Source of the DNA: Gammaproteobacteria bacterium
Lineage (GTDB): Bacteria > Pseudomonadota > Gammaproteobacteria > GRL18
NCBI GenBank assembly: GCA_024511395.1
Contig: JANELJ010000034.1
Span: 1 to 11,661, forward strand
Length of the DNA: 11,661 nucleotides
Direction of reading: 5' to 3'
Shown here: positions 1-11,661 of the stretch, piece by piece
Position numbering within the stretch: the stretch's first letter is position 1
How the letters are laid out: the number at the start of each line of letters is the position of its first letter
Notes under the pieces: model-generated
Seen by the model: only the letters and a program-made list of their open reading frames with translations
Told to the model about the DNA's origin: nothing
Databases searched by the model: none
Program-made: the position numbers and the translations under genes

Positions 1-2
1 GC

Positions 3-31
3 TTTAAACCTGGCTTGATGTCAGGCTTAAA
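3..31. repeat. 12-bp stem-loop at the end of the broken cyclase gene
   Basis: The two arms TTTAAACCTGGC (3-14) and GTCAGGCTTAAA (20-31) pair over 12 positions with one mismatch and one wobble around a 5-base loop. It lies about 10 bases beyond the premature stop of the minus-strand cyclase fragment. It has no clear T-tract on the minus-strand exit side, so a terminator role is uncertain. It could equally be the end of an inserted element or a small interspersed repeat whose other side is outside the window. Confidence 0.4.
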
Positions 32-41
32 ACGGTATTAT

Positions 42-1154
42 TCAGGTTGAACTATTTACGGCAATGTGAAAATTAATAATTGGCTGGCCGGCCTTTTCAC
101 GCTGTATATTCAGGGTAGTGATTAGCCGCTGAATTAACAGAGCATAGGAAATAGCCTGAAAGGTGTGGTGTTCGGTCTGTTCAGGCACTCCAAACACCAG
201 CATAACGCAATCACCGATATATTTATCAACATGACCGCTGTAGATCTGGCCTGCTTGGGCGATATAGGAAAAATATTCATTAAGGATCTGGGTCAGTTTA
301 CCCGGCTCCATGGTTTTGGACATTTCGGTAAAGCCTATCATATCAACAAACAGTACACTGGCATCAATTTGCTGTCCGCCCAGGTTAATGTTCTCCAGGT
401 TATTCAGTACTTCCTGGGCTACCTGAGGAGAAACATAGCGGGAAAAGGCTTTTTCAACTGATTCTTTTTTAACAGACCGTCAGCCATCATATTGAGTGAC
501 TCCATTAAAATACCAAATTCATCATTACGCCGTTCATCAAAACGAACCTTATAATTGCCCCTGGAAATGGCATCACTGGCAGTAACCAGCTCTTCAATGG
601 GTCTGGACAGGCGTTTACCCAGGAAAAAAGCAAATAAAATTGTCAAAATAATCAGTACTATGGTTGTCAGGATTATGGTGTACATGGTTTTAATGCGTGC
701 CTGAGTAAACAGGCTTTGATCAAAAGTCAGTACCACATAACCTATGGTCACATTGTTATAAATGACATGACCCATAAAAGAAAGATTATTGTCCCATTGC
801 AATGATGATATTTGCTTATAATTTGTCGGGAAAGCGGTTAATGGCGGGTAGAGTTCCCTTACTGCTGATGGGCTGTTTTTCATTGGAATAAAAGGTAATG
901 CCCTGAATTTCCGTATGTCGTGAAAGGTTTTTAACCAGTACATCCAGATCTAGGGTATCAGAAGTGAGGTAGGATTCGGTTGCTGAGGTGGCCAGCTGAC
1001 GGATAAGAATATCGGCATAGGAGTACATCTGCTTTTCAAGCAGCTGATTCTGATCACGGATGATCAGTGCGGCCAGTGCCAGCATCCCGGTAACGATCAG
1101 CACTATCATGGAGATGGCCAGTTTGTAGGCATAAGGAAAATTAACTTTTCGCAT
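42..1154 (-). pseudogene. Membrane class III adenylate/guanylate cyclase, frameshifted and truncated
   Basis: Class III cyclases make cAMP or cGMP from ATP or GTP. Three minus-strand segments join into one protein: 1154 to about 825, about 825 to 464, and about 464 to 42. The start at 1154 has AAGGA six bases upstream. In order it encodes TM1 (about residues 12-32), a periplasmic sensor region, TM2 (nt 682-617), a HAMP domain (about nt 616-464) and the catalytic domain. The catalytic domain keeps the metal-binding Asp in FVDMIGFT and the KYIGD lysine/aspartate motif. A +1 shift is needed between about 850 and 818, and a -1 shift at 464-470. The two shifts restore the original frame. After HIAVNS (about nt 50) homology stops, so the glycine-rich and Asn/Arg catalytic part is missing. 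I see no continuation in any frame in 1-44. It is most likely a non-functional relic. Confidence 0.85.
464..470 (-). other. A_AAA_AAG slippery heptamer at the -1 frameshift of the cyclase
   Basis: On the minus strand the HAMP-end codons read TTA AAA AAG, which contains the canonical -1 slippery heptamer in the correct phase. A -1 slip here yields KKESVEKAFSRYVSPQ, the normal HAMP-to-cyclase linker. The unshifted frame reaches TAG about 14 codons later. Either this is a programmed frameshift site or an A was lost from a run of seven. I saw only a weak GAAAA/TTTTC stem downstream. The rest of the gene is damaged, so loss of an A is the simpler reading. Confidence 0.4.
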
Positions 1155-1220
1155 GGTTTTCCTTATCAGAAGAATAACGCATAATGAGTAATCTTTTATC
1201 TAAGATTATTATAGTTAAGC

Positions 1221-1249
1221 CTTGATTTTATTATATGTAAACCTTATTT
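1221..1249 (+). promoter_or_regulatory. Sigma-32-like promoter candidate for hslVU
   Basis: CTTGATT (1221-1227), a 14-base spacer, then CCTTATTT (1242-1249) resembles the heat-shock consensus CTTGAAA / CCCCATNT. It lies 30 bases before the hslV start. hslVU is a classical sigma-32 operon in enteric bacteria. The region is also shared with the divergent cyclase gene and holds a 7-bp inverted repeat, TAATCTT (1189-1195) / AAGATTA (1202-1208). Confidence 0.5.
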
Positions 1250-1279
1250 CACAATAATTAAAAAAGCAGGTAGGTTATT

Positions 1280-1825
1280 TTGGAACAATATAGAGGTACA
1301 ACAATTCTTTCTGTACGCCGGGGTAACCAGGTGGTTATCGGTGGTGATGGACAGGTTTCCTTGGGTAATACCATTATGAAAGGCAATGCCCGTAAGGTGC
1401 GTCGGCTGTTTCATGACAAGGTGATTGCCGGGTTTGCCGGCGGTACTGCTGATGCTTTTACCCTGTTTGAGCGTTTTGAAGCCAAACTGGAGAAGCATCG
1501 CGGCCAGCTGGTACGTTCAGCGGTGGAACTGGCGAAAGACTGGCGGACTGAACAGTCTTTAAGAAAGCTTGAAGCTCTGCTGGCGGTCGCTGATAAGGAT
1601 GCCTCCCTGATTATTACCGGAAATGGTGATGTTATTGAGCCGGAAGAAGGCCTGATAGCCATTGGCTCCGGTGGTCCTTATGCCCAGTCAGCGGCACGTG
1701 CCCTGCTGGATAATACTGAGCTCAGTGCCCGGGAAATTGTACAGAAAGGTCTGACCATAGCCGGTGACATCTGTATTTATACCAACCACAATCAAACTAT
1801 TGAAACACTGGATTTAGACCAGTAA
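1280..1825 (+). CDS. hslV: ATP-dependent protease subunit HslV (ClpQ)
   Basis: HslV is the peptidase of the cytoplasmic HslVU (ClpYQ) protease, a double-ring threonine peptidase related to the proteasome beta subunit. It degrades unfolded and regulatory proteins fed by HslU. The 181-residue product begins [14 protein letters not shown]. Removing the first six residues exposes Thr7 as the catalytic N-terminal threonine, and Asp23 and Lys39 then correspond to mature Asp17 and Lys33. GGTADAF (54-60) and GSGG (129-132) are also conserved. The start is TTG: an in-frame TAG lies three codons upstream and no ATG is nearby, while AGCAGG/TAGG at 1265-1274 gives a good ribosome binding site. hslU follows after 50 bases. 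Length and motifs are normal for the family. Confidence 0.97.
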
Positions 1826-1875
1826 TTAGCCTTATTGATAGCCAGATAAGTATTAAGCAGGAGCAGAAAGAATCA

Positions 1876-3219
1876 ATGTCTCAGATGACACCCAGAGAAA
1901 TTGTACAGGAACTGGATAAACACATTATCGGTCAGGCCGATGCCAAGCGTGCCGTCGCTATTGCCCTGCGTAACCGCTGGCGCAGAAGTCAGGTGGAAGA
2001 ACCACTGTGCAGTGAAATTACCCCCAAGAATATTTTAATGATAGGCCCGACCGGGGTAGGAAAAACCGAAATAGCCCGCCGTCTGGCCCGTCTGGCCAAT
2101 GCCCCTTTTATTAAAATTGAAGCCACCAAGTTCACCGAAGTGGGATATGTAGGCCGTGATGTGGAGTCAATTATCCGTGATCTGGTGGATGTCTCCATTA
2201 AAATGACCCGTGAACAGGCTACCGCCAAAGTTCAGCATCGGGCTCTGGATGCGGCTGAAGACCGGGTACTGGACATTTTATTGCCCCCGGCACGGGGTGC
2301 CGATGAGTGGAATGCTGATGCCATGCCATCAGACAGTGAAAATGCGACCCGCCAGAAGTTTCGTAAGATGCTGCGGGAAGGTAAGCTTGATGAAAAAGAA
2401 ATTGAAGTTGATCTTAAGGCGCCCAGCGTCGGAGTTGAAATTATGGCACCTCCCGGTATGGAGGAAATGACCAGCCAGTTACAGGGTATGTTCCAGAATC
2501 TGGACGGCGGTGGAAAAACCAAACGCAGTAAAATGGCCATTAAAGATGCTATGAAGGTACTGACTGAGGAAGAAGCTGGCAAACTGGTTAATGAAGAAGA
2601 AGTGAAACAGCAGGCGGTCAACAATGTGGAACAGAACGGCATAGTATTTCTGGATGAAATTGACAAAATTGCCACCCGCAGTGAAGGCCGCGGTCCGGAA
2701 GTCTCCCGTGAGGGTGTACAGCGTGACCTACTGCCGCTGGTTGAAGGCAGCACCGTTTCCACCAAGTTTGGTATGATTAAAACCGATCATATTCTGTTTA
2801 TCTGCTCAGGAGCCTTTCACCTGAGCAAGCCGTCGGATCTGATTCCGGAACTGCAGGGCCGTCTGCCTATACGGGTGGAGCTCAATGCTCTGGATGTGAA
2901 GGACTTCAGCCGAATTCTGGTTGAACCGGATGCCTCCCTGACGGAGCAGTACCGGGCCTTAATGGAAACCGAAGGCCTGAAGCTGGAATTTGAACACAGT
3001 GCCATTGAGCGTATTGCAGAAGTGGCCTTTACCGTGAATGAGTCCACCGAAAATATCGGTGCCCGGCGTCTGCATACCATTATGGAACGCCTGCTGGAAT
3101 CCATTTCTTTTGAAGCTTCAGATACCAGTGACGAAGTGCTGGTGATTGACGGTGCTTATGTGGATAAACAATTAGGCGACCTGGCGATTAATGAAGATTT
3201 ATCGCGTTATATTTTATAA
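1876..3219 (+). CDS. hslU: ATP-dependent unfoldase HslU (ClpY)
   Basis: HslU is the hexameric AAA+ ATPase that unfolds substrates and threads them into HslV. The 447-residue product shows Walker A GPTGVGKT (57-64), the pore loop GYVG (90-93), an intermediate domain rich in charged residues (about 110-235), Walker [10 protein letters not shown] (255-263) and the sensor-2 GARR (395-398). It ends in DLSRYIL, matching the C-terminal tail that docks into HslV and activates it. The start [10 protein letters not shown] matches the usual family N-terminus. AGGAG at 1859-1863 lies 12 bases upstream, which is slightly long spacing. It is in one operon with hslV. No defect is seen. Confidence 0.98.
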
Positions 3220-3227
3220 ATTATTTA

Positions 3228-3249
3228 ACCTGATTAATCTTTATCAGGT
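3228..3249 (+). other. Stem-loop between hslU and the DUF971 gene
   Basis: ACCTGAT (3228-3234) and ATCAGGT (3243-3249) form a perfect 7-bp stem with an 8-base loop, starting 8 bases after the hslU stop. No T-tract follows, so full termination is unlikely. It may protect the hslVU mRNA 3' end or attenuate read-through. Confidence 0.4.
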
Positions 3250-3267
3250 AAACAAAGGTAACAAAGT

Positions 3268-3642
3268 ATGTCAGAAACCACCAATACCCCTACACCAACA
3301 GAGATAAACTTTCATCAAAAATCCCGCGAACTGGACGTCGCTTTTGATGACGGCTCCCGCTTTGCCTTCAGCAGTGAATTTTTAAGAGTCCACTCCCCTT
3401 CTGCGGAAGTTCGCGGTCATGCACCGGGTGAGGAAAAATTACAGGTTGGTAAGGAAAACGTCAATATTGAGTCACTGGAGCCGGTTGGTAACTATGCTAT
3501 TAAAATTACCTTTACCGATGGCCATGACAGCGGTATTTTCTCCTGGGAACTGCTGTATGACTATGGCAAAAACCAGGAAAAAATGTGGCCGACCTACCTG
3601 GAAAAACTTAAAGAAGCTGGCCACGAACGTAAAATCAACTAA
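3268..3642 (+). CDS. DUF971 / gamma-butyrobetaine hydroxylase N-terminal-like protein
   Basis: The 124-residue protein matches the DUF971 family, a small beta-rich domain that also forms the N-terminus of gamma-butyrobetaine hydroxylase-type oxygenases. Visible family features are the RELDVAFDDG opening strand (about 20-29), LRVHSPSAEVRGH (39-51), the IESLEPVGNYAIKITFTDGHDSGIFSW core (about 67-93) and the following LLYDYG. The catalytic oxygenase domain is absent, so no hydroxylase activity is expected. Free-standing DUF971 genes often lie next to hslU in gammaproteobacteria, as here 48 bases downstream. Its role is unknown; a link to metal-cluster or quinone metabolism is sometimes suggested for relatives but nothing here shows it. 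AAAGG at 3254-3258 is the ribosome binding site. Confidence 0.88.
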   Translation: MSETTNTPTPTEINFHQKSRELDVAFDDGSRFAFSSEFLRVHSPSAEVRGHAPGEEKLQVGKENVNIESLEPVGNYAIKITFTDGHDSGIFSWELLYDYGKNQEKMWPTYLEKLKEAGHERKIN

Positions 3643-3645
3643 TAT

Positions 3646-3678
3646 CCCCTCATCCGAACCTTCTCCCATTGGGAGAAG
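3646..3678. repeat. REP-like palindromic element, possible terminator
   Basis: CCCCTCATCCGAACC (3646-3660) leads into a perfect stem CTTCTCCC (3660-3667) / GGGAGAAG (3671-3678) with a 3-base loop. The CCCTCA-TCC-AACC plus CTCCC/GGGAG layout resembles interspersed REP-type repeats common in proteobacterial intergenic regions. It sits just after the DUF971 stop. Only a weak T-rich stretch follows. It may help end the hslVU transcript. Confidence 0.55.
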
Positions 3679-3741
3679 ATGCTCAGTTTATTGATTGAAT
3701 TTTAGCCGCATAGATATTGATCAAGAAAAATCCGAATTTTT

Positions 3742-3770
3742 TTCACTCTTAAAGCCAGCAATGGTAGTAT
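3742..3770 (+). promoter_or_regulatory. Extended -10 sigma-70 promoter candidate for the ATPase operon
   Basis: TTCACT (3742-3747), 17 bases, then TAGTAT (3765-3770) preceded by TGG gives an extended -10 element. It would start transcription about 75 bases before the small ORF at 3853, giving a leader that contains the 3787-3822 stem-loop. This is by inspection only. Confidence 0.4.
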
Positions 3771-3786
3771 TAGCGTTTAATAATTT

Positions 3787-3822
3787 GTAGCGGTTCAGGA
3801 CTGTCTGATATGAACGGGCTAC
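3787..3822 (+). other. Structured 5' leader hairpin of the ATPase operon
   Basis: GTAGC (3787-3791) pairs with GCTAC (3818-3822), and GTTCA (3793-3797) pairs with TGAAC (3811-3815), with a small internal loop and a 13-base apical loop. The stem ends 30 bases before the small ORF and about 15 bases before its ribosome binding site. It could be a protein- or RNA-binding leader element. It does not match a riboswitch I know. Confidence 0.35.
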
Positions 3823-3852
3823 TGATAAACATTTCTACCCAGGAGAGCTTCT

Positions 3853-4050
3853 ATGTCGGCAGGTGAACATCCCAAGCCTTTGAATATAACCGAACGGCGT
3901 ACCACCATTGAGGAGTACCCCCGGTTTTGTGAAGAAGAAAAAGAACGCCGTATGAATTCCGATGATGAATTTGAAGAGCAGGCTTTTGATGCGGCCGTCG
4001 AGTTGACCCTGCGTAAACTAGAAAAGCTGGAAGAAGAGGGCTGGGTATGA
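3853..4050 (+). CDS. Small acidic helical protein of unknown function
   Basis: The product is 65 residues. I do not recognise the family. It has a proline-containing N-terminus, then EEYPRFCEEEKERR (about 20-33), then a highly charged predicted helix from about 37 to 63 (FEEQAFDAAVELTLRKLEKL) ending GWV. It has no signal peptide or membrane segment and one cysteine (Cys26). AGGAG at 3841-3845 is a good ribosome binding site seven bases before ATG. Its stop codon overlaps the ATG of the next gene (ATGA at 4047-4050), typical of translational coupling with the SMC-like ATPase. I infer an adaptor or regulator of that ATPase from its position only. The upstream promoter and strict overlap argue that it is a real gene. 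Confidence 0.75.
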   Translation: MSAGEHPKPLNITERRTTIEEYPRFCEEEKERRMNSDDEFEEQAFDAAVELTLRKLEKLEEEGWV

Positions 4051-5849
4051 TTATTCAAAGTATCAGTGCAAGAAATGTACTTAAATACAAAAGCCTGGAG
4101 CTGAACGATCTGCCTGAACAGGGTATTATTGCCATTAGTGGCTTTAATGAGTCCGGCAAAAGTACCATCGGGGAATCCATCTGTTTTGCTCTGTTTGGTC
4201 GAACCTTTTCTATTGATGAAGATGAGCTGGACAAGATATTACGCTGGGGCGCCAGTGACTGTTCAGTAACCATCCGCTTCAGCCATCAAAGTGCTGATGC
4301 CAGCGAGCCTGAACTGTATGCCATTACCCGCATGCTGGACTGTGACGGCAACCACTCTGCCAAGCTTTATAAAGTTTATAATGAAGAAAATGCCATTGCC
4401 CGGTGTGTTGAACGGGTTGAAGAAGCCCTGTATAAGCTGACTTCGGTGGAATTTGATGAGTTTATTGAGTCCTTCTACTTGGCTCAGAGAGAAATCACCA
4501 CCCCCTATCCGCACAGTTATGCCCTTAAAACCATGGCCGGTATCGCCACTATGGAATACTGCGAGCAGAATATCCAGGAAGATATTGAGCAGGATATCGT
4601 TGTCTCCGAAGAGCTGATAAATCGTATCAACCTGCTGGAAGAAGAAATAGAAGCCATACAGCTGGATGAACAGCATCTGGATAAACTGACCGCACAGCAT
4701 GATCAGCTGCTGGCTGATAAAAAGCAGATTGATGAAAACCTGTCAGAGCTGAACAGCAGCATTGAGCAGTATAATACTGACCAGCCGCAGAAAGTGGCCT
4801 ATCAGTATAAAAAAGGCCGAGCCGGGTTCTGGCGTTTTATTAGCCTGATCCTGGCTGCTGGTTTTCTGGGACTATGGGTGATCCTTGTTAAAATGCCCGG
4901 CAGTGACCTGTTTAATAAGGTTAATGAACTTCTACAGACTAATGTTCCCCAGTTCACTGCTGAGCAATACCCGTTTTTGCTCTATGCCGGCAGCGGTTTT
5001 GCTTTACTGTTTATTATTTTCTGGGCCATGATCGTCAGCCATAAAGGCAATATCGGACGTCTGGACGAAGCCGGTAAAACCTTGGCAGAGAAACTGAGGG
5101 CACTGGACAGTGAGTGTGCTGCAGAGTCTGATGAAAACAAGGACATGCTGTTGCGCCGTATTGAAAAAAGCTCACTGGATACTAAAGCCCTGTCTGAAGC
5201 TCTACAGGCGGATCTGGATTATCTGACTCAGGAACAGGAAAAACTGGCGGAACAGATCAGTGAATTATCCTCAGAACTGGCCATTGAACGTGATCGTGTA
5301 GAGAAAGTACGTGATCTGTTGGAAAAAGTAGATATTCTGCAGGCCCAGGTTGATGACAAAGCTGAGCGTAACCGTATCCGGGAACTGGCATCAGAATTAT
5401 TAATGGGCGCCACCCATCACCTGTCCAAACGTTTTAATCATGTGATCCGTGATCACGTCAGCAAGACCCTGCCTCTGTTTACCGACAACCGTTATGAACA
5501 TCTGCAGATTGATGAAGATCTGACTGTACGGGTATTTTCTAATGAAAAGCACGACTTTATGGAACTGGATGAAATTTCCAGCGGTACCCAGCGGCAGATC
5601 ATGCTGGCCGTGCGTCTGGCTCTGTCGCAGGAAATGGTCAGCCGCAAGGTGCATAACCAGCAGTTCCTGATCCTGGATGAGCCGTTTGCCTTCTTTGATG
5701 AAGAACGTACCGAGCGTTCACTGGCGGTATTGCCGGAGCTCAGCGACAATCTGCCGCAAATCTGGATTATTGCTCAGACTTTCCCTGAAGGTATGAACTT
5801 TAAGCGCACTATTTACTGTGAACGGGAACAAGTTGAAAAAACAGCCTGA
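4047..5849 (+). CDS. SMC/Rad50-like ATPase with a transmembrane hairpin in its coiled coil
   Basis: The 600-residue protein has the bipartite ABC ATPase plan of SMC, Rad50/SbcC, RecF and YhaN proteins. The N-terminal half shows MIIQSISARNVLKY, Walker A GFNESGKST (32-40) and a Q-loop around Gln147 (FYLAQRE). A coiled coil runs about 185-245, and a second about 335-445. Between them, where a hinge or zinc hook is expected, lie two hydrophobic segments (about 262-282 and 309-331) with about 26 residues between. Basic residues KKGR before the first and HKGNIGR after the second suggest both ends are cytoplasmic. The C-terminal half carries the signature SSGTQRQ (511-517), Walker B LILDEP (541-546) and D-loop FFDEER. 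YhaN-type proteins are the nearest comparison I can name, but no SbcD/YhaO-like nuclease gene is next to it. Function is unknown; DNA or envelope maintenance at the inner membrane is inference. Confidence 0.85.
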   Translation: MIIQSISARNVLKYKSLELNDLPEQGIIAISGFNESGKSTIGESICFALFGRTFSIDEDELDKILRWGASDCSVTIRFSHQSADASEPELYAITRMLDCDGNHSAKLYKVYNEENAIARCVERVEEALYKLTSVEFDEFIESFYLAQREITTPYPHSYALKTMAGIATMEYCEQNIQEDIEQDIVVSEELINRINLLEEEIEAIQLDEQHLDKLTAQHDQLLADKKQIDENLSELNSSIEQYNTDQPQKVAYQYKKGRAGFWRFISLILAAGFLGLWVILVKMPGSDLFNKVNELLQTNVPQFTAEQYPFLLYAGSGFALLFIIFWAMIVSHKGNIGRLDEAGKTLAEKLRALDSECAAESDENKDMLLRRIEKSSLDTKALSEALQADLDYLTQEQEKLAEQISELSSELAIERDRVEKVRDLLEKVDILQAQVDDKAERNRIRELASELLMGATHHLSKRFNHVIRDHVSKTLPLFTDNRYEHLQIDEDLTVRVFSNEKHDFMELDEISSGTQRQIMLAVRLALSQEMVSRKVHNQQFLILDEPFAFFDEERTERSLAVLPELSDNLPQIWIIAQTFPEGMNFKRTIYCEREQVEKTA

Positions 5850-6297
5850 GTGCAAAAAAGAGCCTGATCAACAGAAAGGCGCCATTAAGCACAGCGGCCC
5901 CAATCATCAGGGTAGTAACAGCACCTCACCCTACCCTGTCAGCCGCCTGGCGCCCCATTTTGAACTGGTGGATCTGGCCCGGCAGATTTCAGAAGCCGAC
6001 AGTAAAATCAATATCCGTGTCAATGCCAAGCTCAAGGTCATTGCCGATCAAATTAAACACCTGCAGGCCGAAGCCCAGAGTGTAATGGAAGCGGCTCAAC
6101 GGGATCAGGAACTGCATCAAGCCGACTGCAATTTCACCCGCATCCCTGGTCGTATTTACCATTTATACAAAAAACCTGATGGTACTACTTATTTCCCCAT
6201 GCTCTCCCCACAGGACTGGGGCAAACAGTGCCCACATGAATTTATAGCCTCCTACCGCCTGGAAAATGATATGTCCTGGACCTTAATGGACAATTAA
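5818..6297 (+). CDS. DUF2452 family protein
   Basis: The 159-residue product matches DUF2452. The N-terminal 38 residues are polar, low in complexity and probably disordered. The conserved domain runs from about 39 to 157: YPVSRLAPHFELVDLARQI, a helical stretch KLKVIADQIKHLQAEAQ (71-87), CNFTRIPGRIYHLYKKPDG (104-122), then MLSPQDWG and PHEFIASYRLENDMSW. No catalytic motif, signal peptide or membrane helix is visible. From memory, the family also includes eukaryotic proteins such as human C1orf50, with no settled function. The start is uncertain: GTG at 5818 overlaps the ATPase gene by 32 bases and has no clear ribosome binding site, while TTG at 5833 has GGGA shortly before it. Overlap with the ATPase gene implies coupled expression. 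Confidence 0.85.
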   Translation: MNGNKLKKQPECKKEPDQQKGAIKHSGPNHQGSNSTSPYPVSRLAPHFELVDLARQISEADSKINIRVNAKLKVIADQIKHLQAEAQSVMEAAQRDQELHQADCNFTRIPGRIYHLYKKPDGTTYFPMLSPQDWGKQCPHEFIASYRLENDMSWTLMDN

Positions 6298-6311
6298 AAG
6301 TTAAAACTTTT
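6296..6311 (+). terminator. Weak AT-rich hairpin after the DUF2452 gene
   Basis: AAAAGTT (6296-6302) and AACTTTT (6305-6311) form a near-perfect palindrome straddling the DUF2452 stop region. The stem has a single G-C pair and a short T-run. It could be a weak terminator, but the evidence is slight. Confidence 0.25.
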
Positions 6312-6362
6312 GTAACTACACTCCATAATACAAACCACCGTAGAGTGACTGACCACAGGATC

Positions 6363-6391
6363 ATGATTTTCTAATGGAATCGTCGTATAAT
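6363..6391 (+). promoter_or_regulatory. Promoter candidate for ubiE-ubiJ-ubiB
   Basis: A consensus -10 TATAAT at 6386-6391 lies 42 bases before the ubiE start. The -35 (ATGATT at 6363-6368, 17-base spacing) is poor. The -10 is flanked by GTCG (6382-6385) and CGAC (6392-6395), a short dyad that might bind a regulator. It would let the ubi genes be transcribed apart from the ATPase block. Confidence 0.5.
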
Positions 6392-6433
6392 CGACACTTA
6401 AGAAAATAACCGCATTTTATTATTGGAAATACC

Positions 6434-7195
6434 ATGGAAAATCAGAATCAGCCGGGTGATACTACCCATTTTGGTTATAAAACGGTCAATAAAGAAGAAA
6501 AAGTCGGTAAGGTGGCCGAGGTTTTTCATTCGGTGGCCAGTAAATACGATGTGATGAATGATCTGATGTCGATGGGTATTCATCGACTCTGGAAGCGTTT
6601 GACCATTGAAAAAAGCGGTGTGCGCCGTGGTCAGAGTGTGCTGGATCTGGCCGGGGGTACAGGCGATCTGGCGGCTAAATTTTCCAGAATTGTGGGTGAA
6701 ACCGGCCGGGTGGTGCTGGGTGATATTAATGAGTCCATGCTTAAGGTAGGCTGTGCCCGCCTGACGGATCAGGGCATTGTCGGTAATGTCGAGTATGTAC
6801 AGGCCAATGCCGAATGCCTGCCTTTTCCGGATAATACCTTTGACTGCATTACTATTGCCTTTGGCCTGCGAAATGTTACAGATAAGGATGCTGCCCTGGC
6901 TTCTATGTTCCGGGTATTAAAACCCGGCGGTCGACTGCTTATCCTAGAATTTTCCAAACCGGTTGCACCGGGTCTGAGTCCCATCTATGATTTTTATTCC
7001 TTTAATATCCTGCCCACCATGGGCAAACTGATTGCCAACGATTCAGAAAGCTATCGTTACCTAGCAGAATCCATTCGTATGCATTCAGATCAGGAAACCC
7101 TGAAGGCTATGATGGAAAATGCCGGCTTTGAGCGCTGTGATTATACCAACCTGACTGGTGGTATTGTGGCTCTGCATCGTGGTTTTAAATTTTAA
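6434..7195 (+). CDS. ubiE: Ubiquinone/menaquinone C-methyltransferase UbiE
   Basis: UbiE is a SAM-dependent methyltransferase that adds the ring C-methyl group in ubiquinone synthesis, and in menaquinone synthesis where that pathway exists. The 253-residue product has the usual length (E. coli 251). It shows the N-terminal [22 protein letters not shown] signature region (30-51), SAM motif [10 protein letters not shown] (70-78), the acidic loop GDIN (96-99), the family motif FGLRNV (143-148), [15 protein letters not shown] (162-176) and YRYLAESI (208-215). GGA at about 6425-6427 precedes the ATG. It is first in a ubiE-ubiJ-ubiB operon; ubiJ begins 18 bases after its stop. Confidence 0.97.
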
Positions 7196-7213
7196 TACAG
7201 GCCCGGTAATTTT

Positions 7214-7921
7214 ATGCAAAGCAGCACTATGGATCATAAAGTAAACAGCCCGCAGGAGCATATCAATCCCCTGCTGATCCCCTTGCTGGCCGCTATGGAG
7301 GCCGCGCTTAATCAGCTATTTGCTATGGATCCCGAGAGTTTTGTCAGACTGGCCGATTTTAAGGGACGTATTATCGCCTTTCATATCACCGATATGGATC
7401 AGTGGCTGTATTTTTTCCCCGATAAACAGGGTATGCAGATCATCAGTCATTATGAAGGTGAACCGGATACGGTTATATCCGGCAGCTTACTGGCCTTTGC
7501 CAAAATGGTTCTGGCAGAAGATCAGGAAAAAACCCGTTCGGTCTTTAAGGGTGATATTAAAATTATCGGCGATATGGCGCTGGGTCAGCATTTTCAGGCA
7601 TTGTTCCAGCAGCTAGATATTGACTGGGAAGAACATCTGTCTCATATTACCGGTGATATCATAGCACATTCACTGGGCAATGCAGCGCGAGGCATACTCG
7701 GTTTTGGTAGACAACTCTTTAATTCACTGGGTATGGATGTAAGTGAGTACTTGCAATATGAAACTCGTGATATTGCTTCCGAGCCGGAAATTCAGCATTT
7801 TAACCAGCAGGTGGATATTATCCGTAATGATGTTGAACGGGCAGAAGCCCGTATTAAGCGTCTGGAACAGGCGCTTGCTCAGTTAGCTCAATCAGAAAAA
7901 GAAAACAGCTCTGACCAATAA
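7214..7921 (+). CDS. ubiJ: Ubiquinone biosynthesis accessory factor UbiJ (SCP2 domain)
   Basis: UbiJ is a non-enzymatic factor of aerobic ubiquinone synthesis. Its SCP2 lipid-binding domain is thought to hold hydrophobic intermediates within the soluble Ubi complex with UbiK. The 235-residue product is somewhat longer than E. coli UbiJ (201), owing mostly to an N-terminal extension. The SCP2 domain spans about 33-135 (FVRLADFKGRIIAFHITDMD, then VISGSLLAFAKM and VFKGDIKIIGDMALGQHFQALF). A linker with LSHITGDIIAHSLGNAARG follows, then a C-terminal coiled coil (about 192-230, NDVERAEARIKRLEQAL). Identification rests on these features and on its place between ubiE and ubiB. ATG codons at 7214 and 7229 are both possible; the upstream GGTAA is a weak ribosome binding site. 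Confidence 0.92.
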   Translation: MQSSTMDHKVNSPQEHINPLLIPLLAAMEAALNQLFAMDPESFVRLADFKGRIIAFHITDMDQWLYFFPDKQGMQIISHYEGEPDTVISGSLLAFAKMVLAEDQEKTRSVFKGDIKIIGDMALGQHFQALFQQLDIDWEEHLSHITGDIIAHSLGNAARGILGFGRQLFNSLGMDVSEYLQYETRDIASEPEIQHFNQQVDIIRNDVERAEARIKRLEQALAQLAQSEKENSSDQ

Positions 7922-7951
7922 CGGAACCCCTTTCTACATGGCTCACATTCA

Positions 7952-9580
7952 ATGAGAAACATCGCTCACTTTTTCCACCTGATGACTATTAGCCGGGTGC
8001 TGCTGAAACACGGCCTGGATGAGTTAATTCTAAATACCCATCTGTTCAGACCTATTCGTTTGCTGCGTTATTTATCTCCTACCTTCTGGTTTAACCCCCG
8101 AACCCGCCGACCACGGGGTGAACGTATTCGTATGGCCCTGGAAGATCTGGGGCCGATTTTTGTTAAGTTCGGGCAGATTCTGTCAACCCGGCGGGATCTG
8201 CTGCCTGATGATCTGGCTGAGGAACTGGCCAAATTGCAGGATCAGGTGCTGCCCTTTGGTGCAGAGAAAGCCGTGGCCATCATTGAGGCCTCATTTAAAC
8301 AGCCGATTACTGATATTTTTGCCGAGTTTGAGCATACCCCGCTGGCCTCTGCTTCCATTGCCCAGGTACATACCGCTACCATGCATGACGGCCGGGAAGT
8401 GGTGGTTAAAGTGGTGCGTCCGGATATTGAAAAGGTTATTCGCCGTGATCTGGCACTGCTGTATGTGATTGCCGGCAAGATGGAACGCTACTGGGCTGAT
8501 GGCCGGCGTCTGCGCCCAATGGAAGTGGTGCATGAATTTGAAAAAAACATTCTGGATGAGCTGGATCTGCTGCGTGAAGCCGCCAATGCTTCCCAGTTAA
8601 GACGAAACTTTAAAGACTCCACTATTCTGTATGTACCGGAAGTGGACTGGAACCACTGTCGTAAAAAAGTCATGGTTATGGAGCGCATTCATGGTGTACC
8701 GGTAACCAATATGGCCGAGCTTAAGTCCATGGATATTGACTTTAAGCGGCTGGCGGAAATGGGTGTGGAAATCTTTTTTACCCAAGTGTTCCGGGATAAT
8801 TTTTTCCATGCCGATATGCACCCCGGAAATATCTTTGTCTCCAATACCGGCCAGTATATTGCCATTGATTTCGGTATTATGGGTACTCTGAATCCGGAAG
8901 ATCAGCGTTATCTGGCAGAAAACTTCCTGGCCTTTTTTAACCGGGATTATTACCGGGTGGCTGAACTGCATGTGGAATCCGGCTGGGTACCACCGGATAC
9001 CCGGGTGGATGATTTTGAGTCGGCGATCCGTTCGGTATGTGAGCCGATTTTTGAAAAGCCGCTGCACGAAATTTCTTTTGGTCAGTTATTATTACGCCTG
9101 TTTCAGACTGCACGGCGTTTTAATATGGAGGTTCAGCCACAGCTGGTGTTATTACAGAAAACCCTGCTTAATATCGAGGGTCTGGGACGGCAGCTATACC
9201 CTGAACTGGATCTCTGGGATACTGCCAAACCGTTCCTGGAAAACTGGATGAAAGAACAGCTGGGTTTCCGCTCTTTTGCCAAACAGATCAAACACAATGC
9301 CCCTTTATGGATGGAGCAGCTGCCAGATTTCCCCAATAAAGTTTTTGATGTGGTACAACAGGCCCGCCATGGTAAGCTGAGCATTAATTACAAAAGTGAA
9401 ACCTTAAACCGTATCGAAGAAAAAATTGAACTGCAGAGCAGTAAGACCACATCTGCAATTATCAGTTCGGGCCTGCTGGTATGCGGAGCTATTCTGTATT
9501 CTGGCAGTTTAATACTTGAGGCTCAGGTTCTGGCAGGACTGGGTGTGGTAGGTGTATTGTGGGCACTATTTAAAAAATAA
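7952..9580 (+). CDS. ubiB: Atypical kinase/ATPase UbiB of ubiquinone biosynthesis
   Basis: UbiB belongs to the ABC1/ADCK/Coq8 family of atypical protein kinase-like ATPases needed for ubiquinone synthesis at the inner membrane. The 542-residue length is typical. Visible motifs in order are the inhibitory KxGQ KFGQ (72-75) in [16 protein letters not shown], the alanine-rich nucleotide loop ASASIAQVH (132-140), the ATP-site Lys153 in VVVKVVRP, ExD at 203-205, the catalytic loop HADMHPGN (286-293) and DFG (306-308). Two C-terminal hydrophobic segments (about 497-540) form the membrane anchor. It is the last gene of ubiE-ubiJ-ubiB, 30 bases after ubiJ, and ends just before a strong terminator. 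The ribosome binding site before ATG 7952 is poor. Confidence 0.97.
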
Positions 9581-9585
9581 AGTTC

Positions 9586-9623
9586 TCTCCCCTGCGCCTG
9601 AAAAAAGTAGGGGAGATTTTTTT
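9586..9623 (+). terminator. Rho-independent terminator of the ubiEJB operon
   Basis: TCTCCCCT (9586-9593) and AGGGGAGA (9609-9616) form a perfect 8-bp stem with a 15-base loop, followed directly by seven T (9617-9623). It begins 5 bases after the ubiB stop. The next gene converges from the minus strand, and its stop is 8 bases beyond the T-run, so the stem may partly serve both sides. Confidence 0.93.
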
Positions 9624-9630
9624 AACAGGT

Positions 9631-9915
9631 TTAAAGTACCTTTTTGGCAGTATTTAATAACTGTTCCGGATTAAACGGCTTAACCAGCCAACCAGTAGCC
9701 CCCGCTGCTTTACCTTCCATTTTTTTATCGGTACCGGCTTCTGTGGTTAATACTAGGATGGGAGTGAATTTATAATTGGGTAGTTTATGAACTTCTTTGG
9801 TAAAAGCCAGTCCGTCATTGGCTTCTTCCACTTCATAACCTGCACTTTTCAGGGTAAAAGAAATCATTTGTCTCATGGATGATGAGTCATCCACCACTAA
9901 AATTTTCTGTGCCAT
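9631..9915 (-). CDS. CheY-like receiver domain lacking the phospho-acceptor aspartate
   Basis: Stand-alone CheY-type receivers normally have about 121 residues and are phosphorylated on a central Asp at the end of strand beta-3. This one has 94. It keeps the acidic pair Asp9/Asp10 (KILVVDDSSSMRQM), the conserved Thr57/Thr58 (LVLTTEA) and Lys79 (GWLVKPFNPEQLL). However, EANDG (31-35) runs straight into LAFTKEVHKLPNYKFTP. The block normally between, with the LTDxNMPNMDG phospho-acceptor strand, is missing: about 26 residues, in frame. Both deletion edges would have encoded Asp-Gly, consistent with loss between short repeats. A good ribosome binding site (GGAG seven bases upstream) remains. No kinase or chemotaxis gene is nearby. 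It probably cannot be phosphorylated and may not fold as a normal receiver; it may be a pseudogene. Confidence 0.85.
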   Translation of the reverse strand: MAQKILVVDDSSSMRQMISFTLKSAGYEVEEANDGLAFTKEVHKLPNYKFTPILVLTTEAGTDKKMEGKAAGATGWLVKPFNPEQLLNTAKKVL

Positions 9916-10000
9916 TGTATGCTCCGAAATTAGGTAATTTTTTCTTTAAGAATGATTGATGCAGGCTAAAAAATCAAGTTACAAATATTTAATGTTGGCT

Positions 10001-10675
10001 TCAGGTTTGCCAGTTAATGGGGGCCTGTCCCTGCTGTTCAAGAAACTGGTTTATTTTAGAAAACGGGCGGCGGCCGAAAAATCCCCGATAGGCAGATAAA
10101 GGGGATGGATGAGGGGAACGCAGGACAAAATGTTTATCAGTATCAATAATGGCACCTTTTTTCTGGGCATAGCTGCCCCATAAGACAAAGGCAATGGGCC
10201 GGGACTGCTGATTAAGGGTATTGATAATGACGTCGGTCAGAATTTCCCAGCCACGCCCCTGATGAGAATTAGGTTCACCGCTTTCCACGGTTAAGACACT
10301 ATTAAGCAATAATACTCCCTGTTCGGCCCAGGACTGTAAATGACCATTGTGGTTAGTAATGCCCAGATCATCTTGCAGTTCCTTAAATATATTAATCAGG
10401 GATTTGGGGATGGGTTTGACTTCCGGCATAACCGAAAAGCAGAGACCATGGGCATGTCCAGGGGTGGGGTAGGGATCCTGACCTAGGATAACCACTTTAA
10501 CCTGTTCCGGGGCGGTGGTGTTAAGGGCATTAAACCAGAGGCTGGAGTGGGGCAGAATAATTTTGCCCTGGTTTTTTTCAGTGCGTAAAAATTCTTTAAG
10601 GTTTAATAAGGCATCTGTTTGAAAGGTGTCTTCAAGCAGTTCCTTCCAGCCGTTATTAAGTTTGACAGAACTCAT
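10001..10675 (-). CDS. ung: Uracil-DNA glycosylase (family 1)
   Basis: Ung removes uracil from DNA, starting base excision repair of deaminated cytosine and misincorporated dUMP. The 224-residue protein shows the water-activating motif GQDPYP (65-70, catalytic Asp67), the uracil pocket AHGLCFS (75-81), LLLNSVLTV (122-130, Asn125), VLWGSYAQKKG (164-174) and the DNA-intercalating loop HPSPLSAYRGFFG (189-201, catalytic His189). Many relatives have GQDPYH; the GQDPYPTPGHAHG form here is a known variant in gammaproteobacteria as I recall. Length is normal. It is encoded 85 bases upstream of the receiver gene on the same strand and has its own promoter candidate. The start at 10675 follows a GGGGG Shine-Dalgarno-like run. 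Confidence 0.96.
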   Translation of the reverse strand: MSSVKLNNGWKELLEDTFQTDALLNLKEFLRTEKNQGKIILPHSSLWFNALNTTAPEQVKVVILGQDPYPTPGHAHGLCFSVMPEVKPIPKSLINIFKELQDDLGITNHNGHLQSWAEQGVLLLNSVLTVESGEPNSHQGRGWEILTDVIINTLNQQSRPIAFVLWGSYAQKKGAIIDTDKHFVLRSPHPSPLSAYRGFFGRRPFSKINQFLEQQGQAPINWQT

Positions 10676-10684
10676 AAATACCCC

Positions 10685-10703
10685 CGAGTAAATAATTTAC
10701 CCG
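10685..10703 (-). promoter_or_regulatory. Dyad at the 5' end of the ung transcript
   Basis: CGAGTAAAT (10685-10693) and ATTTACCCG (10695-10703) surround one central A, with a single mismatch that becomes a G-U pair in the minus-strand RNA. It abuts the GGGGG run that acts as the ung ribosome binding site. It could be an operator or an RNA hairpin limiting translation. Confidence 0.35.
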
Positions 10704-10706
10704 GAG

Positions 10707-10735
10707 AGTATAACCGCTTTACTGCAGGCATGGAA
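10707..10735 (-). promoter_or_regulatory. Sigma-70 promoter candidate for ung
   Basis: Read on the minus strand, TATACT (10712-10707) is a good -10, and TTCCAT (10735-10730), 17 bases upstream, is a weak -35. The -35 overlaps a perfect palindrome at 10728-10742. Confidence 0.5.
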
Positions 10736-10742
10736 TCCATGC
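10728..10742. promoter_or_regulatory. Perfect 15-bp palindrome over the ung -35 region
   Basis: GCATGGAATCCATGC is a perfect 7+1+7 inverted repeat covering the predicted ung -35 hexamer. Its position suits a repressor or activator site. It does not match the LexA box (CTG-N10-CAG as the core) or another operator I know. A transcription terminator role for the upstream SYLF gene is less likely because no T-run follows on the minus strand. Confidence 0.4.
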
Positions 10743-10787
10743 AGTTAAATCTACTGATTAATTTAGGTTAAAAGAGCTCCCGGGTGA

Positions 10788-11297
10788 TTATTTTTTAGGA
10801 GTAAAGGTAAATTTCTGACCAGCCAGGCTGGCTTCATACATCAGACCAGCCTTGGCAACGGTAAAAACAACCATGCCCTTACGAAAACCACTGCTGGCCG
10901 TATCAGCATTGTTTTTGTCACCGCTGATAGAAGCGGTATTGCCGGTGGTATTGGCACTAGCTGATGCTCCGGCGGTAATGGCAACGGCTTCAGCAGAAGC
11001 GCTGAACTCAAAGTTGTTGCTGGTAAAGGCATCCAGTGCAGCCTTGTTTTCAAAGAAAATAATCTGGCTGAATTCCTGGGCTCCTAGCTGGAAACCAATG
11101 GAGCCCTGAGTCATACTGGTGTCACCAATATATTTGCCTTGTTCATAGACTTTACCTTTGCCATAGGCGCCGCCAATCACAAAGCCGGCTTTACCAATGG
11201 TTGGAAATACGGCATAGCCGTAGCTTCTTTTGAAAAACTGGCCACTTTCGCCGGCTTCACGAAATACTTTTAAAGTATCTGCAATATCATCGGCCAT
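10788..11297 (-). CDS. YSC84/SYLF-domain lipid-binding protein (mature part)
   Basis: SYLF (YSC84-like) proteins bind phosphoinositides in eukaryotes; bacterial members are exported proteins of poorly known role. The open frame gives 169 residues covering the whole mature domain: GYAVFPTIGKAGFVIGGAYGKG (27-48), YIGDTSMTQGSIGFQLGAQEFSQIIFFE (56-83), FEFSASAEAVAITAGASASA (96-115) and a C-terminal KGMVVFTVAKAGLMYEASLAGQKF. In frame upstream of ATG 11297 the codons read LVLLSQSA, giving a signal-peptide core and an SQSAMA cleavage site, but a TAA lies a few codons further up (11333-11331). The signal-peptide start is in another frame (11355). ATG 11297 itself has no convincing ribosome binding site. 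Export is therefore probably lost unless the sequence is in error or a +1 shift occurs. Confidence 0.85.
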   Translation of the reverse strand: MADDIADTLKVFREAGESGQFFKRSYGYAVFPTIGKAGFVIGGAYGKGKVYEQGKYIGDTSMTQGSIGFQLGAQEFSQIIFFENKAALDAFTSNNFEFSASAEAVAITAGASASANTTGNTASISGDKNNADTASSGFRKGMVVFTVAKAGLMYEASLAGQKFTFTPKK

Positions 11298-11355
11298 CGC
11301 ACTCTGCGATAGTAAAACTAAAGAGAAGAATTAATAATGTAAAAATCTTTTTCAT
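11287..11355 (-). pseudogene. Out-of-frame signal peptide start of the SYLF gene
   Basis: ATG at 11355 has AAGGA nine bases upstream and encodes MKKIFTLLILLF, a typical signal-peptide n- and h-region. It then runs out of frame with the SYLF domain to a TGA at 11289-11287. Removing one T from the TTT run at 11322-11320 would join it to LVLLSQSAMADD, restoring a normal Sec signal peptide. This shows the true gene start and a single-base +1 lesion. Confidence 0.8.
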
Positions 11356-11392
11356 AGCTGCTTTCCTTAAAGTTAAAAAATAAAGTAAAAAT

Positions 11393-11409
11393 GTACCACA
11401 TAATGGTAC
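11393..11409. promoter_or_regulatory. Palindromic operator candidate between divergent genes
   Basis: GTACCA (11393-11398), five bases, then TGGTAC (11404-11409) is a perfect 6-bp inverted repeat. It covers the predicted -35 of the hemerythrin-like gene and the predicted start point of the SYLF gene, so one bound protein could control both. Confidence 0.45.
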
Positions 11410-11427
11410 TATAAAGGCTACTATAAT
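11399..11427 (+). promoter_or_regulatory. Promoter candidate for the hemerythrin-like gene
   Basis: The consensus -10 TATAAT at 11422-11427 has only a poor -35 (CATAAT, 11399-11404) inside the palindrome, which may mean an activator is needed. The start point would be about 9 bases before the ATG, so the mRNA would be nearly leaderless. Confidence 0.45.
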
Positions 11428-11436
11428 TGATATGAA
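11408..11436 (-). promoter_or_regulatory. Promoter candidate for the SYLF gene
   Basis: Read on the minus strand, TTCATA (11436-11431), 17 bases, then TATAGT (11413-11408) gives an acceptable sigma-70 promoter. It overlaps the plus-strand promoter of the divergent gene. Confidence 0.4.
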
Positions 11437-11442
11437 CCTATT

Positions 11443-11661
11443 ATGAAACGCATAACACAGCTTCAACCCCTGTCCAAAGAGCATCATCAGTCGCTGGTAC
11501 TGTCACAAAAAGCCATTAATACAGCACAGCAGGGTGATGAGAAACAAATTGCAGAATTCTGTCAGCAAATTGTGCAGAGCTATCCCGGTGACTGGAAAAT
11601 ACATTTTAAAATTGAAGAAGACAGTATTTTTCATGTGATTCAACATTTATCTGCCGACCAT
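11443..11661 (+). CDS. Hemerythrin-like HHE domain protein, cut by the window end
   Basis: The first 73 residues are present and the frame is open at the edge. LSKEHHQSLVLSQKA (10-24) carries the first histidines of an HHE helix (His14, His15), and HFKIEEDSIF (54-63) carries the next ligand candidates (His54 and Glu58). Hemerythrin-like domains are four-helix bundles with a non-heme di-iron site that bind oxygen or sense oxidative or nitrosative stress. The remaining ligands should lie beyond the window. The start ATG has no strong ribosome binding site and is close to the predicted transcription start. It is divergent from the SYLF gene. Confidence 0.75.
   Translation, partial: MKRITQLQPLSKEHHQSLVLSQKAINTAQQGDEKQIAEFCQQIVQSYPGDWKIHFKIEEDSIFHVIQHLSADH

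Follow-up and report, generated by a model that had tools for sequence, protein, structure and literature searches.

A small helical protein closely coupled to a Rad50/SMC-fold ATPase with a predicted membrane hairpin

The window, meaning the whole stretch of DNA analysed here, comprises positions 1 to 11,661 (11,661 nucleotides) of contig JANELJ010000034.1 from a gammaproteobacterial genome (assembly GCA_024511395.1; 2.26 Mb in 407 contigs, 99.4% complete). It carries three overlapping genes, encoding a 65-residue protein (p65), a 600-residue ATPase of the Rad50/SMC fold and a DUF2452 protein. The first two form, with high confidence, a closely coupled, dedicated two-gene unit, and their pairing and overlap are the strongest result of the analysis. 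The overlap of all three genes claimed in a first-pass annotation made from the sequence alone is borne out: p65 and the ATPase share an ATGA, and the ATPase and DUF2452 genes share 32 bases given a GTG start for the latter. The features of the locus are as follows.

3853-4050, forward strand: p65, from the list of open reading frames (ORFs); 65 residues, isoelectric point 4.5, predicted helical hairpin, near-obligate neighbour of the ATPase.
4047-4050, forward strand: ATGA in which the p65 stop codon and the ATPase start codon overlap; 4 bases, exact in 50 of 68 p65-bearing loci.
4047-5849, forward strand: Rad50/SMC-fold ATPase, 600 residues, from Pfam, AlphaFold2, Foldseek and hydropathy; short coiled coil and predicted apical hydrophobic hairpin.
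4140-4163, forward strand: Walker A motif GFNESGKS, residues 32-39, from sequence and conservation.
4836-4892, forward strand: hydrophobic segment 1, residues 264-282, from hydropathy.
4980-5036, forward strand: hydrophobic segment 2, residues 312-330, from hydropathy.
5577-5597, forward strand: ABC signature motif SSGTQRQ, residues 511-517, from sequence and conservation.
5667-5684, forward strand: Walker B motif LILDEP with intact Glu, residues 541-546, from sequence and conservation.
5818-6297, forward strand: DUF2452 protein with a GTG start and a 32-base overlap with the ATPase; judged a genus-level passenger.

Across the class, the presence of p65 closely tracks that of the ATPase. Profile scans find the ATPase in 34 of 369 class genomes and p65, at E < 1e-14, in 33 of these 34 and in none of the 335 ATPase-negative genomes (Fisher 2.5e-46). 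Matches to p65 at E 0.005-0.009 in four ATPase-negative genomes (G142, G281, G289 and G379) are taken as chance. The profile also recovers the p65 of G006 (locus L105), which tblastn had missed (L025, L029). Of 299 genomes scanned across the phylum, 33 have the ATPase and 32 of these lie outside the class, among them Magnetococcus marinus MC-1 (G393), in which p65 adjoins the ATPase (L186). Proteins resembling p65 are also listed from Thiothrix.

Gene order at 70 loci from 69 genomes tells the same story. They cover 33 of the 34 ATPase-positive genomes of the class (all except G008), 19 of the 32 positives beyond it and 17 further genomes, 12 of them relatives. In 68 of the 70, p65 lies upstream of the ATPase, with a profile match at E < 1e-3 in 67 of the 68; the p65 of L185 is weak (E 0.32) and is counted by position. 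The remaining two are L104, a complete locus without p65, and L169, which is cut by a contig end. The start of the ATPase is overlapped by p65 in 60 of the 68 loci, exactly by ATGA in 50, a conservation far beyond chance. Directly upstream placement of p65 persists even where ATPase identity falls to 34-43% and the hslVU neighbourhood is gone, and p65 stays while the other neighbours of the ATPase vary between lineages. Beyond the 70 loci, the p65 of G008 was found in other searches and G001, G002, G003 and G012 show the gene; G015 and G022 were not inspected for it. The earlier proposal that the ATPase has a dedicated neighbour, the small helical protein, is thus upheld by both co-occurrence and adjacency. 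Fusions of p65 to the ATPase were also looked for, and none appears among 120 listed of 903 ATPase homologues.

The ATPase itself belongs to the Rad50/SMC coiled-coil ABC superfamily, having a split head, the Walker A, signature and Walker B motifs and a coiled-coil link. Pfam assigns it to PF13476 (AAA_23, 3e-14) and PF02463 (SMC_N, 4.9e-13). An AlphaFold2 model built from 42 aligned sequences (mean predicted local distance difference test score, pLDDT, 85.1; predicted template modelling score 0.58) joins the two head halves through a region with helices at 167-204, 210-282, 305-356 and 379-478. Foldseek ranks Mre11-Rad50 structures first (5dny Rad50, E 1e-18), followed by SMC, SbcCD and Lamassu, in agreement with profile comparison against PDB (5f3w, 9.9e-34; 3aux, 1e-32). 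Residues of the Walker A, signature and Walker B motifs are kept, with D544 and E545 present in at least 95% of 68 ATPase sequences. A simple hydropathy cut-off picks out two hydrophobic segments in 58 of the 70 ATPases. All but one (69) have at least one segment in the middle of the protein; L103, which does not, is a 365-residue frame near a contig end whose other half seemingly lies on a second contig. One of the two segments of the L180 ATPase is not mid-protein. In the window ATPase the segments are separated by 29 residues and presumably represent transmembrane spans at the tip of the coiled coil. The earlier description of an SMC/Rad50-like protein with membrane segments accordingly holds up in Pfam, Foldseek and the hydropathy segments at 264-282 and 312-330. 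As for a zinc hook, the window ATPase contains no CxxC, and a CxxC within residues 150-520 occurs in four of the 70 relatives, in none of them between the two hydrophobic segments. The base of the coiled coil, at approximately residues 441-480, stands out in the ATPase family by higher conservation than the remaining coil, a pattern that would fit a binding site for p65. Two ATPase cysteines are also conserved across the 68 sequences, C591 (at least 95%) and C46 (85-95%). A redox device built on them was considered and is not claimed, as the p65 cysteine is not invariant.

No Pfam or NCBIfam family matches p65 at E up to 1. AlphaFold2 predicts a two-helix hairpin, with helices at 18-34 and 42-61 and a mean pLDDT of 83.7. 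The first-pass annotation had described a small acidic helical protein, kleisin- or adaptor-like by size and charge. Its helical nature and its place beside the ATPase stand; the acidity does not generalise, since a few distant members, such as those of L102 and L100, are basic, which indicates that charge is not the conserved feature. Fold comparison gives no significant match for p65; kleisins, which bridge two heads and work with KITE or HAWK subunits, are generally larger than p65.

Most work on Rad50- and SMC-type ATPases has concerned soluble machines whose partner is a nuclease, a kleisin or an effector. Besides its single copy, the ATPase has one distant match in the host genome, which is SbcC. 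The separate sbcDC pair lies on contig C66, with sbcD first and a 4-base overlap at 6180-6183; the SbcD passes the TIGR00619 cut-off, and the SbcC matches NF007600 over its full length at 3.7e-166, below that model's cut-off. Because sbcD-sbcC has the same layout, of a first gene joined to the second by four bases, p65 occupies, by gene order and overlap, the position of sbcD. The window ATPase resembles Rad50/SbcC in its head fold, its Walker motifs, a coiled coil that returns to the head and a partner gene upstream with an ATGA overlap, as in the host sbcD-sbcC. It differs in its hydrophobic hairpin in place of a zinc hook, its length of about 600 residues, its SSGTQRQ signature and its tiny helical neighbour in place of Mre11/SbcD; no Mre11/SbcD metallophosphoesterase lies beside it in the window. 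A second comparison, by description only, is with YhaN (SbcE), which has membrane segments and whose operon partners are the nucleases YhaO and YhaM, partners that set the Bacillus protein apart from the ATPase described here. We know of no p65-like partner of YhaN. Like the ATPase, Bacillus YhaN is SMC-like and distinct from SbcC; a passage of PMC4205851 assigns YhaN a part in double-strand break repair.

These observations suggest a membrane-anchored, Rad50/SMC-like nucleic-acid complex with two subunits, p65 and the ATPase, a reading that, taken as a whole chain, we put at slightly short of an even chance. Its computed basis is the pair, the geometry of the overlap, the predicted folds, the hydrophobic segments and the conserved ATPase motifs; from these we infer the physical binding of p65 and its site, membrane insertion, a DNA substrate and a housekeeping role. 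In this model two ATPase heads would come together as a dimer around two ATPs, and a short coiled coil would link each head to a transmembrane hairpin, which replaces the zinc hook of Rad50. Translated just before the ATPase, p65 would bind the head-proximal coiled coil and control head engagement, at the position taken on Rad50 by the helix-loop-helix of Mre11, so that p65 would stand for Mre11. The assembly would bind or clamp nucleic acid at the membrane, with chromosomal DNA or DNA ends as its likeliest substrate, and would serve as a chromosome-maintenance device with no nuclease of its own, additional to SbcCD.

Several points weigh against such a complex. One ATPase-positive class genome, G242 (locus L104), does without p65. 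A likeness of p65 to Mre11 or to any other solved fold was sought and nothing significant emerged: Foldseek returns 12 weak matches to solved structures (best E 3.8), none of them Mre11, and the p65 profile run against PDB finds no Mre11 at E up to 10, its top match being cullin-3 at E 0.039. The host has its own SbcCD, such that a repair role for the pair would be an additional one. Membrane insertion is a prediction from hydropathy. Finally, the enrichment of the sulfur-oxidation genes dsrA and soxB among pair-positive genomes, described below, is not predicted by a generic role on DNA.

More tentatively still, and on balance doubtfully, the pair could define a new class in which a transmembrane hairpin substitutes for the zinc hook and a free-standing hairpin subunit of 50-65 residues for the nuclease, forming a nuclease-free, ATP-gated tether for nucleic acid at the inner membrane, retained within the Gammaproteobacteria and outside them, chiefly in genomes with sulfur-oxidation genes. 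The fold family is already known; the apparent novelty would lie in combining a hydrophobic hairpin with a near-obligate small hairpin partner. Among the papers listed by searches of the open-licence literature, none showed a Rad50-like ATPase that is anchored in the membrane and has a small partner. If the proposal is correct, fixing the coiled coil in the membrane and pairing it with a tiny partner separates the ATPase and tethering functions from cleavage. Two small genes in strict pairing would make a readily reconstituted and cleanly testable complex, and the pair reaches named organisms such as Magnetococcus marinus MC-1.

An alternative that we consider unlikely is that the pair supplies the ATPase half of a nuclease machine resembling SbcCD or YhaNO, with the nuclease gene lying elsewhere. 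In some relatives the candidate enzyme would be a neighbouring RNase II-like 3'-5' exoribonuclease, giving a membrane-anchored complex for RNA or DNA degradation. Such a gene lies directly upstream of p65 in five gammaproteobacterial loci (L040-L044, of which L040 is labelled Sedimenticola); Pfam finds RNB (E 3e-56 to 5e-51), HTH_RNase_II and S1 domains in all four that it was run on, and the fifth, L042, is recognised by a local profile. It lies 2.6 kb upstream of p65 in L079 and 2.0 kb upstream in L086, and the Firmicutes YhaN is likewise encoded beside YhaM and YhaO. The statement in the first-pass annotation that no nuclease is present is true of the window and fails in these five relatives. 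Against the nuclease-machine reading, the RNase II-like gene occurs in 22 of the 369 genomes, only five of them ATPase-positive (5 of 34; Fisher p = 0.04), and its use as a query in the window genome yields weak matches only, to a 798-residue frame with a best identity of 31%. A constant nuclease partner was rejected on this distribution, the RNase II-like neighbour being lineage-specific. Nor does a metallophosphoesterase appear among 13 other neighbours run through Pfam, a small part of all neighbours; those 13 include a transporter, a histidine kinase, AlgH-like, TPR, solute-binding and MoaA-like proteins and a multihaem cytochrome, and some have no match. Clustering of neighbour ORFs identifies no third gene that is present in nearly all loci, and the other large recurring clusters are, as read from the clustering, antisense or shadow frames of the ATPase. 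In L104 (G242; region 2900-4200), the ORF upstream of the ATPase looks like a small S4-type RNA-binding protein.

Equally unlikely, in our estimation, is a role in the envelope or in metabolism, perhaps in sulfur oxidation, in which ATP-driven closure of the heads pulls on the membrane hairpin without nucleic acid, by analogy with the coupling ATPases of the cell envelope. Conservation of the hydrophobic hairpin is consistent with this proposal, as is the distribution of sulfur-oxidation markers. Of the 34 pair-positive genomes, 26 have dsrA above cut-off and 27 have soxB; of the 46 pair-negative ones, 10 and 11 do, respectively (p 1.3e-6 for dsrA and 1.1e-6 for soxB). Counted by family, each marker is present in 14 of 17, versus 10 of 46 for dsrA (p 1.9e-5) and 11 of 46 for soxB (p 6.8e-5). 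These are Fisher tests in which the negatives are 46 of the 335 ATPase-negative genomes, taken in list order, and a piece of dsrA below cut-off in G056 is scored negative. The window genome, however, has neither marker above cut-off despite its completeness, and the association may be explained by shared ancestry; no mechanism is drawn from it. Additionally, the 29 residues between the segments leave little to act on outside the membrane, and the solved structure nearest to the ATPase heads is that of Rad50.

It is improbable that the pair is a defence system akin to Lamassu or MADS, in which the ATPase would be the sensor and p65 a small adaptor. Both systems resemble the pair in having a short Rad50-like ATPase and a small partner, and the ATPase is hit by the PADLOC profiles mad3 (8.7e-18) and LmuB (7.7e-14); according to a passage of PMC10586767, a small middle protein, LmuC, is usual in Lamassu. 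The pair differs from them in its intact Walker B Glu, its hydrophobic hairpin and its lack of LmuA, with no PADLOC match to that effector in p65, the ATPase or DUF2452. A change of this Glu to Gln is stated as general for LmuB in the same passage of PMC10586767. No effector gene is constant among the neighbours, and PADLOC matches none of the 10 tested from 186 listed neighbour ORFs. The window ATPase, the sole query in that search, has no match in phage or plasmid records at E 1e-10. Within its own family the pair lies mostly beside housekeeping genes, with hslU or DUF971 adjacent to the ATPase in 17 of 20 genomes checked. A location in a defence island thus finds no support in the PADLOC results for the 10 neighbours or in the phage and plasmid records.

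The third gene encodes a clear PF10504 (DUF2452) protein (E 2.5e-54; 183.5 bits against a gathering score of 25), a family whose name reportedly occurs in a paper on human C1orf50. It was searched for in 62 genomes, namely 24 of the window family, 30 further ATPase-positive class genomes and eight outside the class. Matches occur in six, five of them over cut-off, and a complete gene stands beside the ATPase in two (G000 and G005). In G268, G261, G206 and G275, DUF2452 lies elsewhere in the genome. G004, from the genus of the window, retains only a piece of it beside the ATPase. The G002 contig breaks off after the first 20 residues of DUF2452, and those of G001 and G003 stop within the ATPase. 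Of the two neighbours proposed for the ATPase in the first-pass annotation, p65 is therefore retained by most homologues, and DUF2452 is not. The gene is best described as a genus-level passenger, whose link to the pair may hold for the genus and not beyond. That p65, the ATPase and DUF2452 make up one functional system is highly improbable, and refuted as a general rule, despite the 32-base overlap complete here and in the sister genome G005 and the DUF2452 start at the G002 contig end, given the scarcity of the complete adjacent gene, its location elsewhere in four genomes and the mere piece in G004.

The p65-ATPase-DUF2452 block is flanked by hslV-hslU-DUF971 and ubiE-ubiJ-ubiB, names read from the ORFs, with Pfam matches to GBBH-like_N in the DUF971-like gene and SCP2 in the ubiJ-like gene. 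A shared promoter candidate and a leader hairpin had also been proposed for the block, and neither gains support. A scan of 3600-6500 with a sigma-70-like consensus, which covers one promoter type only, gives two sites, both at approximately 6270-6330 and none 5' of p65, compared with 4.4 expected from shuffles. Folding of the 218-nucleotide leader is not above that of shuffled sequences (z = -1.14; 24 of 200 shuffles as good), and an Rfam scan of the window produces no match at gathering scores. A short perfect hairpin, CTTCTCCC-ATT-GGGAGAAG, is located at approximately 3660-3678, directly after the DUF971 stop and without a T-run, and may mark the end of the hslVU-DUF971 unit. On the minus strand at 42-1154, a gene with HAMP and adenylate/guanylate-cyclase domains seems to be split across three ORFs in different frames, two of which have Pfam matches, through either a broken gene or an assembly frameshift.

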